Source: Microbacterium oxydans (GTDB lineage: Bacteria; Actinomycetota; Actinomycetes; Actinomycetales; Microbacteriaceae). From it: a DNA stretch of 64,000 nt. Of this stretch, positions 43,938 through 46,742 are shown in pieces; position 1 is the stretch's first letter; every line of letters begins with the position of its first letter. The stretch covers positions 62,001 to 126,000 of the forward strand of contig NZ_JYIV01000027.1 in assembly GCF_000956405.1 (NCBI RefSeq), in the 5' to 3' direction. Position numbers and translations under genes: made by a program. The notes under the pieces were generated by a model. It had not been told where the DNA came from. It ran no database searches and saw only the letters and a list, made by a program, of their open reading frames with translations.

Positions 43938-44702
43938 TCACGCGCGCGAGACCTCTCGCCAGAGCGCGGCCCAGTGCTCCGGGCGCAGATCACGGGGAAG
44001 GCGACGGTCCCCCGCGCCGGCCACTGCCACCACGCGTCGTGCCCTGGCCATCGGGATGCGTGCGGCGACGGCCACGACCGCGGCGAGACTCCCGCCGCGC
44101 CCCGTGAACATCGCGCGGACGAAGGTCTCGTATCGCTGCCGATCCGATACCGGGACGAGGGGCGACCCCCGACGGGTGATGGCGAGCAGGCCGCCGTCGA
44201 CGCTCGGCTGCGGCGAGAAGCCTCTGGCAGGGACCCGCCCTTCCAGGGAGAACTCGAACCAGGGCGCGGACTGCGCCGTCATCATGGTGCCGCCCCCGAC
44301 GCCGGCTCGCTTGCGCGCCACCTCCCACTGCGTGAGCAGCATCGCGTCGCTCCAGCGGCCGCGCGCGAGCAGTCGCCGCAGAATGGGCGTCGTCACGTGG
44401 AAGGGGATGTTGCCGACCACGGTGTCCGCATCGAGCGGGTGCCGTGTGGCGTCGGCGATCTCGACGCGCACACCGGGCAGCGCCGTGCGCAGTCGGTGCA
44501 CGCGGTGCTCGTCGACGTCGATCGCGGTGAGCGGTCTGCCCAGATCCGCGAGCACACGGGTCAGTGCTCCGTCGCCGCAGCCGAGTTCGAGGATCGAGCC
44601 GGAGGTGCGCCCGACGAGGGCGGAGATGCGGGTGAGGGTCGGACGGTGGATGAGGAAGTTCTGGCCGAGTTCGTGACGGCCGCCATGGATTGAACGAGGC
44701 AT
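43938..44702 (-). CDS. erm: Erm-family 23S rRNA (adenine-N6) methyltransferase
   Basis: A 254-residue rRNA methyltransferase of the Erm/KsgA family, predicted to dimethylate A2058 (E. coli numbering) and give macrolide-lincosamide-streptogramin B resistance. It has RHELGQNFL at the N-terminus, SILELGCGDGALTRVLADLG for S-adenosylmethionine, and the catalytic GNIPFHVTTPILRRLL. This pattern and length distinguish it from housekeeping KsgA. The ATG at 44702 has GGAG 7 nt upstream. Its leader ORF and hairpins suggest drug-induced translation. Confidence 0.9.
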   Translation of the reverse strand: MPRSIHGGRHELGQNFLIHRPTLTRISALVGRTSGSILELGCGDGALTRVLADLGRPLTAIDVDEHRVHRLRTALPGVRVEIADATRHPLDADTVVGNIPFHVTTPILRRLLARGRWSDAMLLTQWEVARKRAGVGGGTMMTAQSAPWFEFSLEGRVPARGFSPQPSVDGGLLAITRRGSPLVPVSDRQRYETFVRAMFTGRGGSLAAVVAVAARIPMARARRVVAVAGAGDRRLPRDLRPEHWAALWREVSRA

Positions 44703-44708
44703 GAGTGC

Positions 44709-44844
44709 GCTCCAGAGGAAGAATCGGAGCACCTCGGAGGAGGGAGACGACGCGAAGAGGCGTCAGTGAGGACTGCCCGTCCCGAGGTGCGATGACATCT
44801 CGGTGGACGGCGCGCAGATGCGTGCGGAGAGCGAGCGCGCCGTC
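44709..44844 (-). promoter_or_regulatory. Attenuator-like hairpins in the erm leader
   Basis: Three pairings can be read on the mRNA: 44835-44844 with 44806-44815 (10 bp, beginning at the leader stop codon), 44782-44790 with 44729-44737 (9 bp), and 44726-44730 with 44709-44713 (GCTCC with the GGAGC that holds the ribosome-binding site). The last two compete for 44729-44730. A ribosome stalled in the leader could shift the balance and free the erm start, as in known erm genes. Confidence 0.6.
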
Positions 44845-44881
44845 AGGCGCGGCGGTCGCGGAACACGAGAGTGCGCCCCAT
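44843..44881 (-). CDS. Erm leader peptide, MGRTLVFRDRRA
   Basis: A 12-codon frame starting ATG at 44881 and stopping at 44843, about 140 nt upstream of erm. It contains Arg-Asp-Arg at residues 8-10, an R-x-R (+X+) pattern of the kind at which macrolide-bound ribosomes stall. The stop codon falls in the first hairpin arm. It is too short for statistical ORF evidence; position and motif are the support. Confidence 0.55.
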   Translation of the reverse strand: MGRTLVFRDRRA

Positions 44882-44928
44882 CACGGGCGCTGCGCATATT
44901 GTTCCCATGCCTGCCAGCATATCCGCCC

Positions 44929-45531
44929 TCAGATCCAGCCGCGCTCCTCGGCGATCAGCACGGCCTGCTGCCGCGTGCCGACGGAGAGCTTCCCGAGGAT
45001 CACCGAGATGTGGTTGCGCACGGTGCCTGGCGCGAGGGAGAGAGCGCGCGCGATCTGCCCGGTCGTCTCCCCGCGCCGGCCCGCTCGCAGCACATCGAGC
45101 TCGCGGTCGGTGAGCGGTGAGCGTTCGTCGCTGAGGGCGTCGGCCGCGATCTCCGGATCGACGTAGCGGGCACCCGCGGCGACGCGACGGATCACCGCGG
45201 CGACCTCGTCGGCGCCGCGCGATTTGGGGAGGAATCCGGAGACGCCGGAGGCGAGGGCACGTCGCAGCACTCCAGGGCGTGCGTGGCGGGTCACCACCAC
45301 GCAGCGCGTCGCGATCGCCCTGTTCAGCTTCTCGGCCACCTGCACGCCGTCGAGGGCAGGCATCTCCAGATCGAGCAGGCAGACGTCCGGCTGCAGCCGC
45401 ATAGCCTCGGCCACGGCCTGCTCCCCGTCGGCGCACTCGGCGACGACCTCGATGTCGGGTTCGAGCCGCAGCAGCGCGGCGAGCGCGGAACGGATCATCC
45501 CCTCGTCATCGGCCAGCAGCACCCGGATCAT
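44929..45531 (-). CDS. NarL/DesR-type response regulator
   Basis: A 200-residue two-component regulator. The receiver domain has Asp-Asp near residue 8 and the phosphorylated Asp54 in CLLDLEMPALDG; the LuxR-type helix-turn-helix is LTDRELDVLRAGRRGETTGQIARALSLAPGTVRNHISVILGKL at about residues 140-182. Its start overlaps the kinase stop by 4 bp (ATGA), so the two genes are coupled. The erm gene lies 3' of it in the same direction. Confidence 0.95.
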   Translation of the reverse strand: MIRVLLADDEGMIRSALAALLRLEPDIEVVAECADGEQAVAEAMRLQPDVCLLDLEMPALDGVQVAEKLNRAIATRCVVVTRHARPGVLRRALASGVSGFLPKSRGADEVAAVIRRVAAGARYVDPEIAADALSDERSPLTDRELDVLRAGRRGETTGQIARALSLAPGTVRNHISVILGKLSVGTRQQAVLIAEERGWI

Positions 45532-46742
45532 CGGACCTCCTCCGGCGCCGACGGCACCGTCACGACCACGAGGAACTCGTCAGGACCTCGCCGCACATCG
45601 AGCGTCCCCTGTGCCTCTTCGATCCGCCGCCGCACACCCTCGAGACCCGACCCGTCGAGGTCGACCGCTTCAGGCTCGGAGCCGGTGTGCAGCACCAGGT
45701 CGTTCGCGATCTCATAGCGCCAGACGTGGCCGGCGCGAACCAGCAGGAGACGTACACGCCCTCCACCACCATGACGCAGGACGTTCGTCGTCGTCTCCCG
45801 GATCACAGGGCCCAGAGCCGACGCCGGCGCCGAATCGGCATCCGCATCGATGACGGCATCCACGTCCAGGCCCGCCGCGGCGAGCAGATCTCTGGCATTG
45901 GCCAGTTCGTCGCCCAGCGGCACCGAGCGGAAGCGCGTCGCCAGGTCCCTGGTGCCCTGACGCGCCTCGTCCACACTGATGCGGGCGGCGCGGAGCTGCT
46001 CCATCCCCGCCTCGGGATCGCTCGGCAGCAGGCGTTCGGCCAGTTCCAGCTGGAGTGCGATGACCTGGAGGTGGTGACCTTGCAGGTCGTGCACGTCCGT
46101 GGCGACGCGCAGGCGCTCCTGGGTTGCCGCGAGCTTGGCCTCCGAGGTGCGGGCGCGGTCCAGGGTGACCAGCACATCCCACCACCACAGCGAGCTCACG
46201 GTCGTCCCGGGGAGCAGCACCCCGTAGATGGCCGGCAGCCACCAGGGCAGATCGACCCCGAAACTGGTCGTCGTCGAGTCGATCAGCCCCAGCGCGATCA
46301 GCACGAGGGTGGCCGCACCGACGACGCGCACGCGCACGCCCCGCGGCCAGCTCAGCAGCACGAAGAACTGCATCACCGGCATGGCGCCGAGCTGCCAGCT
46401 GCCCACCAGCAGACCTGCTGTGAGTCCGTAGCCGACCGCGACGAGGAAGGGGACGGTCAGACGACCCCATGCCACCCTCGGTGCGACGTCGACGTGGCGA
46501 CGGTAGTCGTCGAGCAGCAGCAGCGTCGAGGCACACCACCCCAGTCCGCCGAGGCCGACGACGAGGAGGACCTCGCCGCGCAGATCGTCCGCCGCCGCGA
46601 TGCCGGTCCATGCCCCGACGAGCATCAGCTCGATGAACAGCACGCCCGCCACCGTGTACCACCAGGTCGCCGTGATGCCGCGCGCCAGCTGACGCGATCC
46701 GGGTGTCGGCTCAGCGGCGGTGTCGGGGGGTACGCGGGTCAC
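45528..46742 (-). CDS. DesK/NarX-type sensor histidine kinase
   Basis: A 404-residue kinase with an N-terminal membrane region (about six hydrophobic segments, residues 20-190), a dimerisation domain with the phosphorylated His in DVHDLQGHHLQVIALQLELAERLL (near residue 216), and an HATPase_c domain (ETTTNVLRHGGGG, LDGSGLEGVRRRIEEAQG). It has no large extracytoplasmic domain, so it probably senses a membrane or intramembrane cue. A palindromic operator lies in front of it. Confidence 0.93.
   Translation of the reverse strand: MTRVPPDTAAEPTPGSRQLARGITATWWYTVAGVLFIELMLVGAWTGIAAADDLRGEVLLVVGLGGLGWCASTLLLLDDYRRHVDVAPRVAWGRLTVPFLVAVGYGLTAGLLVGSWQLGAMPVMQFFVLLSWPRGVRVRVVGAATLVLIALGLIDSTTTSFGVDLPWWLPAIYGVLLPGTTVSSLWWWDVLVTLDRARTSEAKLAATQERLRVATDVHDLQGHHLQVIALQLELAERLLPSDPEAGMEQLRAARISVDEARQGTRDLATRFRSVPLGDELANARDLLAAAGLDVDAVIDADADSAPASALGPVIRETTTNVLRHGGGGRVRLLLVRAGHVWRYEIANDLVLHTGSEPEAVDLDGSGLEGVRRRIEEAQGTLDVRRGPDEFLVVVTVPSAPEEVR

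Follow-up and report, generated by a model that had tools for sequence, protein, structure and literature searches.

In translational attenuators of the ermC type, four RNA segments form alternative hairpins that hide the Shine-Dalgarno sequence until a ribosome stalls in the leader. For the leader peptide ErmDL, which carries the +X+ motif Arg-Leu-Arg, one study describes an arrest in the presence of telithromycin during which the P site holds the middle residue and the A site the second arginine, both arginines being required; under erythromycin, the +X+ motif did not need to be intact, and other motifs, including XDK, occurred as well (PMC8298421). Inverse toeprinting was reported to yield an enrichment of +X(+) motifs under erythromycin (PMC6238534), and erythromycin-inducible translational attenuation through the leader has been proposed for erm(X) (PMC3350403). 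A survey published in 2024, which covered 35 known erm genes and homologs, reports no universal pattern of leader ORFs and palindromes, describes uORFs in part of the erm genes and proposes independent evolution (PMC11264731).

Here, we analyzed a chromosomal erm gene of Microbacterium oxydans, contained in a DNA stretch of 64,000 nucleotides (hereafter called the window). This gene is quite likely under the control of a macrolide-inducible translational attenuator with a leaderless leader. Like ErmDL, the leader contains an R-x-R motif, and R-L-R itself is found in three leaders of the genus. However, the middle residue is usually Asp, the ORF is longer (21 codons), the motif is C-terminal, and the ORF is probably leaderless. 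Whereas the ermC-type attenuator comprises four segments, there are six in the present case, with the extra pair consisting of the last leader codons and the bases after the stop codon. A study by Canestrari in 2020 reportedly described leaderless polycysteine attenuator ORFs in mycobacteria; these are likewise short leaderless attenuators in an actinobacterium, but they sense cysteine rather than a drug. The features of the locus, in the order in which they would be transcribed, are as follows:

44916-44921, minus strand: -10-like element TATGCT, 7 nt before the leader ATG; putative leaderless promoter signature
44843-44908, minus strand: leader ORF of 21 codons, MGTICAAPVMGRTLVFRDRRA; homologous ORF in 104 of 105 loci
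44852-44860, minus strand: Arg-Asp-Arg, leader codons 17-19; presumed macrolide arrest site (+X+), R-x-R in 104 of 105 loci
44846-44851, minus strand: segment P (CGCGCC) in the last leader codons; its helix with 44836-44841 spans the stop codon
44835-44844, minus strand: segment A (GACGGCGCGC), from the second base of the stop codon; partner P or B
44799-44815, minus strand: segment B (GCGCGCCGTCCACCGAG); 44806-44815 pair with A, 44799-44810 with C
44777-44790, minus strand: segment C (GCACCTCGGGACGG); partner B or D, covariation with both
44726-44737, minus strand: segment D (CCGAGGTGCTCC); 44729-44737 pair with C, 44726-44732 with E
44707-44713, minus strand: segment E (GGAGCGC), erm Shine-Dalgarno sequence; GGAG in 99 of 102 loci
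43938-44702, minus strand: erm, 254 codons; Erm-family 23S rRNA methyltransferase (NCBIfam NF000499)

A first-pass annotation of the window had assigned the gene product to the Erm family of methyltransferases, which is borne out by a score of 214.8 bits against NF000499 (cut-off 212), a narrow pass of a broad Erm model. By this curated model, the product is an Erm-family member, for which methylation of A2058 and MLS resistance can be predicted. Matches to this type of Erm (E <= 1e-40) are present in 106 of 366 Microbacterium genomes, including that of the window, and the proteins of named M. oxydans relatives are 86 and 88% identical to it. In two loci, L119 (G232) and L217 (G352), the erm gene is split, giving two matches in different frames, and the upstream leader is retained.

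Upstream of erm, on the same strand, there is a conserved leader ORF that is predicted to be translated. The first-pass annotation had proposed an ORF of 12 codons at this site. Its frame (MGRTLVFRDRRA), its TGA stop codon (44845-44843) and its position 140 nt before the erm start codon (ATG, 44702) were correct, but the conserved leader comprises 21 codons and starts at 44908, with the frame being open upstream of the shorter version. Comparing the upstream regions of 107 loci, we searched for leaders with R-x-R within two residues of their end and a TAnnnT hexamer 5-9 nt before their start; where several starts fitted, the one with TAnnnT nearest to 7 nt was chosen. After removal of L065 (contig edge) and L124 (match without gene start), 105 usable loci remained, including the window's own. 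The leader proved to be conserved across these homologous regions, with 104 of the 105 loci containing an ORF of 19-22 codons whose C-terminus consists of R-x-R plus two residues, represented by 88 distinct nucleotide sequences and 81 distinct peptides. The start codon at the counterpart of window position 44908 is ATG in 86 and GTG in 18 of these 104 cases. At the internal start codon of the 12-codon version, 55 loci have ATG, 27 have ACG and 22 have other codons, and ATG, GTG or TTG is found at this codon or the one before it in 84 of the 104 loci, so that an additional internal start is possible. When the promoter requirement was dropped, a search for R-D-[R/Q/H]-R returned 93 of the 107 loci, and 11 of the remaining 14 were variants. 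The leader of L013, a locus from a different family of the same order, contains R-L-R, with TAnnnT being absent at 5-9 nt. An Rfam scan of the window returned nothing at gathering thresholds, and tblastn searches of plasmids with two leader peptides gave no matches, as expected for queries this short. A search of the open-access literature, with subscription papers mostly outside its scope, found no description of a Microbacterium erm leader or of a leaderless erm leader.

The ends of these leaders read RDRRA in 82 of the 104 cases, RDRRS in eight, RERRA in five, RDRSA and RLRSA in two each, and RDRRF, RDRRP, RNRRA, RDRRD and RLRRA in one each. The middle residue is Asp in 95, Glu in five, Leu in three and Asn in one of them, and the residue after R-x-R is always Arg or Ser. 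The middle residue changed at least five times on the Erm tree, and the arginine codons show synonymous changes among the loci. This retention of R-x-R in the face of a varying middle residue is what a +X+ macrolide-arrest motif predicts, suggesting that drug-bound ribosomes may arrest at this site; the first-pass annotation had pointed to Arg-Asp-Arg as a stalling motif of the R-x-R type, and its conservation together with the two following residues in 104 of 105 loci agrees with this assignment. With R-D-R-R comprising three arginines in four residues, the leader could also be imagined to sense another stress, such as arginine shortage or other peptidyl-transferase drugs, through its arginine codons, and uORFs that sense several drug classes are said to exist. 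However, the downstream gene is erm, and since the fourth residue may be Ser and the middle one Asp, Glu, Asn or Leu, what is conserved is not a run of arginine codons. At least 146 of 366 genomes contain the pattern R-[D/E]-R-[R/S]-x-stop-CGGCG, and two of its matches away from erm (L215 and L216) were rejected as candidates, showing neither a leader nor an attenuator by eye. A sensor for other stresses thus appears extremely improbable.

The leader probably constitutes the start of a leaderless mRNA. TAnnnT precedes its start by 6 nt in 31 and by 7 nt in 73 loci, i.e., in 104 of 105 loci overall, compared with 52 of 10350 other ATG or GTG codons in the same loci, as would be typical of a leaderless transcript. 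The 104 loci commonly have a G two bases ahead of TAnnnT, reminiscent of an extended -10 element, and neither a conserved nor an AT-rich -35 block is apparent upstream of the -10 element in them. This promoter architecture bears on a rival explanation, according to which the upstream region mainly stabilizes the mRNA or lowers expression and the leader plays a minor or drug-independent role, with erm being controlled by a WhiB7-like factor or the adjacent two-component system. Members of the WhiB7 regulon are marked by an AT-rich block adjoining the -35 element. M. tuberculosis erm(37) belongs to this regulon, according to a previous report (PMC4128351), and the response regulator gene ends only 20 nt upstream of the window leader ATG. 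However, the WhiB7 marker is missing at the erm leaders, with no conserved or AT-rich -35 region in the 104 loci, and in L007-L013, as judged by eye, other sequence replaces the regulator gene directly upstream. Moreover, control by a transcription factor would leave the constraint on R-x-R with its free middle residue unexplained. We therefore consider this explanation to be quite improbable.

The leader is followed by a series of complementary segments, for which the first-pass annotation had listed three stems, all with correct coordinates. The 10-bp stem (44835-44844 with 44806-44815) is present and includes the stop codon from its second base on, the 9-bp stem (44782-44790 with 44729-44737) exists as described, and GCTCC (44726-44730) is indeed complementary to GGAGC (44709-44713). 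In 2000 dinucleotide shuffles of the region from the stop codon to the Shine-Dalgarno sequence, the 10-bp A:B helix never arose, the 9-bp C:D helix arose in seven cases and both together in none; the P:A run was obtained in 57, B:C in 167 and the 5-bp D:E helix in 602 of them, so that each of these three alone may be due to chance. The RNA folds moderately better than shuffled sequences, with a z-score of -2.68 (0/200) when starting from 44920 and of -1.97 (9/200) when starting from the leader ATG.

For the analysis of folding and covariation, L122 and L123 were left out (gene start unclear) and five duplicates were removed, reducing the set from 102 loci to 97 distinct sequences. In these, 95.2% of cells were paired for P:A, 96.3% for A:B, 80.6% for outer B:C, 94.5% for inner B:C, 95.9% for C:D and 99.3% for D:E, and no helix exceeded 69% when its 3' partner was slid by 1-3 columns. 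The comparison of homologs also revealed covariation in two of the helices. With gapped cells set aside, C:D displayed 43 double-change cells (shuffled mean 1.4) and inner B:C 36 (shuffled mean 13.9), values that were reached by 0 of 300 shuffles in either case. By contrast with the same 300 shuffles, no covariation in excess was detected for P:A, A:B, outer B:C and D:E across the 97 sequences; P:A, A:B and D:E are nearly invariant within the genus. Position 44785 in C pairs with both 44800 in B and 44734 in D, and among 102 loci this triple (44785/44800/44734) reads A-T-A in 43, G-C-G in 34, A-T-G in 10 and otherwise in 15. As 44785 co-varies with both of its partners, C appears to be complementary to B and D simultaneously. 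This key position varies essentially once on the tree. A test of independent pairs on the tree was uninformative, yielding one pair, or two on unsupported branches in one comparison.

Several of the helices are mutually exclusive, with C pairing with either B or D and D with either C or E, and one of them, D:E, contains the erm Shine-Dalgarno sequence. A leader peptide with mutually exclusive helices is also the signature of transcription attenuation, in which the arrested ribosome would decide between a terminator and an antiterminator, and actinobacterial terminators may lack a U tract, which counts in favor of this possibility. However, a scan requiring a T run found no terminator-like site in 44650-45050, and the last helix, D:E, which is paired in 99.3% of cells, holds the Shine-Dalgarno GGAG (99 of 102 loci), making transcription attenuation an unlikely alternative to the translational mechanism.

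Starting from the leader, R-x-R, the -10 signature, all of the segments and the covariation of C with B and D, as found in the aligned DNA, we infer the arrest and its position, the order of the switch, induction and methylation as follows. Transcription would start at the leader ATG (44908) or one base before it, and the leader would be read from a leaderless mRNA. In the absence of drug, the ribosome would complete the leader and, at the stop codon, cover P and A; after its release, P:A would close, leaving B free for C and allowing D:E to hide the erm Shine-Dalgarno sequence. A macrolide-bound ribosome, on the other hand, would arrest at Arg17-Asp18-Arg19, with its P site occupied by Asp and its A site by Arg, so that P would be covered and A, beginning 13 nt past the first base of the P-site codon, would stay accessible. 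A:B could then form and C be released to D, thereby exposing the Shine-Dalgarno sequence and enabling the synthesis of Erm, which would methylate 23S rRNA. The downstream edge of a ribosome lies at roughly this spacing of 13 nt, counted from the start of the P-site codon. The A arm starts at this distance from the presumed P-site codon in the window, in erm(36), in erm(55) and in a Kocuria plasmid gene; the equivalent distance would be 10 nt in L013 and 18 nt in erm(X).

In terms of modeled RNA states, we read the combination of A:B and C:D as the induced state and that of P:A with B:C and D:E as the repressed state. The first-pass annotation had regarded the locus as a complete attenuator by inspection. 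The leader and the conservation of its stems uphold this view, but the three listed stems alone give a switch of the wrong sign, because A:B plus C:D leaves the Shine-Dalgarno sequence freer. A reading based solely on A:B, C:D and D:E was rejected for this reason; inclusion of P:A and B:C restored the parity. Opening of the Shine-Dalgarno sequence was calculated to cost 4.8 kcal/mol with C:D and 9.25 kcal/mol with B:C (mean difference 4.45 kcal/mol), and the cost was higher with B:C in 93 of the 97 sequences. For the window RNA starting at the leader ATG (L001), the best folds of the two kinds have energies of -88.4 and -88.3 kcal/mol and thus lie within 0.1 kcal/mol of each other.

Simulations with a masked leader gave a mixed picture. 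In equilibrium folding, no placement of the mask within the leader released the Shine-Dalgarno sequence (mean unpaired probability 0.03-0.06), as determined for all sequences except L034, L120 and L121, which lack GGAG. Masking of A failed to raise the probability of B:C, which fell from a mean of 0.49 to 0.34-0.43 and, for the window, from 0.45 to at most 0.06. With a mask at +12, the best C:D fold of the window was 2.0 kcal/mol better than the best B:C fold, and it was 1.6 kcal/mol worse at +1. The latter two results are opposite to the model, indicating either a kinetic switch or a failure of the energy model. Support is likewise missing for an exclusion of B:C by A:B, with outer B:C being paired in 80.6% of cells and lacking covariation among the 97 sequences, and 7 bp of A:B are compatible with the rest of B:C and with D:E. 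In partial transcripts that extend no further than C, this segment was on average cheapest to free (6.0 kcal/mol) with a mask that stopped 2-4 nt short of the end of the stop codon, covering P and leaving A free. The corresponding cost was 7.0 kcal/mol for a ribosome at termination, with the arrest-site mask being lower in 72 and higher in 23 of 97 sequences, and 6.8 kcal/mol without a ribosome (lower in 61 and higher in 27 of 97). The window's own minimum is located elsewhere (5.4 kcal/mol at +5, compared with 6.6 at -2). This test, with an effect of about 1 kcal/mol, agrees weakly with a relay, and the two equilibrium tests disagree with it; the six-segment relay is a proposed mechanism.

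How does this leader compare with those of other erm genes? The erm(36) leader from Micrococcus luteus plasmid pMEC2 (MGSPSIAVTRFRRF) has TAGGGT 7 nt before its ATG, the same R-x-R-R-x-stop ending and candidate P:A, A:B (from the second base of the stop codon), B:C, C:D and D:E helices, although its Erm is only 47.6% identical, its leader has 14 codons of other sequence and its arms differ in sequence. Similarly, the erm(X) leader from Corynebacterium striatum plasmid pTP10 (MLISGTAFLRLRTNR) has TATAAT 7 nt before its ATG, R-L-R and all five helices as candidate pairings, but every arm sequence differs, three rather than two residues separate R-x-R from the stop codon, and the A arm begins just after it. 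TAnnnT at 6-7 nt before a leader with R-x-R recurs in erm(36), erm(55), erm(X), erm(50), erm(51) and a Nocardioides plasmid gene, with the motif being positioned mid-peptide in erm(50) and erm(51) (both R-L-R) and in the Nocardioides gene. The endings of the erm(36) and erm(55) leaders are of the same kind as in the window, and that of erm(X) is similar. The remark of the first-pass annotation that the leader sequence was not recognizable from known erm genes hence does not extend to its ending. As for the arms, the stop codon's second base marks the start of A not only in the window but also in erm(36), erm(46), erm(55), L013 and a Kocuria plasmid gene, a hairpin of other sequence occupies the P:A position in erm(X), erm(36) and erm(46), and all five helices are candidate pairings in L013, again with other sequence. 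D:E is weak in erm(46), A:B and P:A are unconvincing in erm(51), and P:A and D:E are not clearly readable in erm(55). One erm(46) copy, on a Rhodococcus gordoniae plasmid (L208), has a leader (VGNTNIAVTEFRRF) that ends in E-F-R-R-F instead of R-F-R; with the first Arg of R-x-R replaced by Glu, this copy lacks +X+.

Natural variation extends to loci labeled with other taxa. Among the best 80 of 510 named loci, 34 carry a label other than Microbacterium, and 26 of these have a leader of the type described here, with Gordonia showing R-Y-R and two others R-E-R; the remaining eight failed the leader test. The two sets overlap, as 53 of the 80 named loci, including eight of the 34, are identical over 550 nt to a locus of the first set. 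L155 and L158, from Brevibacterium and a Propionibacterium MAG, carry related erm genes, and in both, what by eye resembles the end of an insertion sequence replaces the leader and part of the switch. As also judged by eye, a stop codon lies ahead of R-D-R in L166, L201 and L202 have an 8-codon leader without R-x-R, L196 has only ATG-TGA, and L189 keeps R-D-R in the absence of TAnnnT. In L185 (Desertihabitans), erm directly follows an apparent ABC-F ATPase gene, with no leader being visible by eye. Our guess would be that control of erm is lost in those named loci whose leader is absent or altered. In L151-L154, L156 and L157, labeled as Homoserinimonas, Microbacteriaceae, Kocuria, Intrasporangiaceae, Actinomycetota and Propioniciclava, 550 bases of erm and upstream DNA are identical to L071, and such identity across labeled taxa suggests recent transfer. 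As to the neighborhood of the leader, a two-component system (histidine kinase and response regulator) is located directly upstream at window position 44929-46742, on the minus strand; the end of the regulator gene is retained upstream of the leader in L002-L006, as judged by eye, and not in L007-L013.

Collectively, our findings indicate that the erm attenuator is real, conserved and probably macrolide-inducible. Attenuation of erm genes is known in kind; the leader, its probable leaderless start and the hairpin at its stop codon are new. In contrast to the survey mentioned above, the loci analyzed here point to one plan shared by many actinobacterial loci, with a -10 element right at the leader start, R-x-R near the leader end, A at the stop codon and C common to B and D. 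This plan is not universal, given the mid-peptide R-L-R of erm(50) and erm(51), the erm(46) copy without R-x-R and the eight of 34 named loci that fail the leader test. It is tempting to speculate, with more doubt than confidence, that a leaderless +X+ attenuator is ancestral across much of the Actinomycetota, usually with R-x-R near the leader end, the last codons as the first relay arm and a six-segment relay, and that its R-D-R branch may respond to both ketolides and cladinose macrolides, as R-D-R fits the +X+ rule as well as the Asp-then-basic pattern of ErmBL. Such leaders may escape notice partly because their starts are leaderless, and these loci would offer a case of drug sensing on a leaderless ORF. 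The variants R-D-R, R-E-R, R-N-R, R-L-R, R-Y-R, R-F-R and R-I-R represent a natural series in which to study the role of the middle residue. Moreover, our results predict that many chromosomal erm genes in environmental actinobacteria would be silent before induction.
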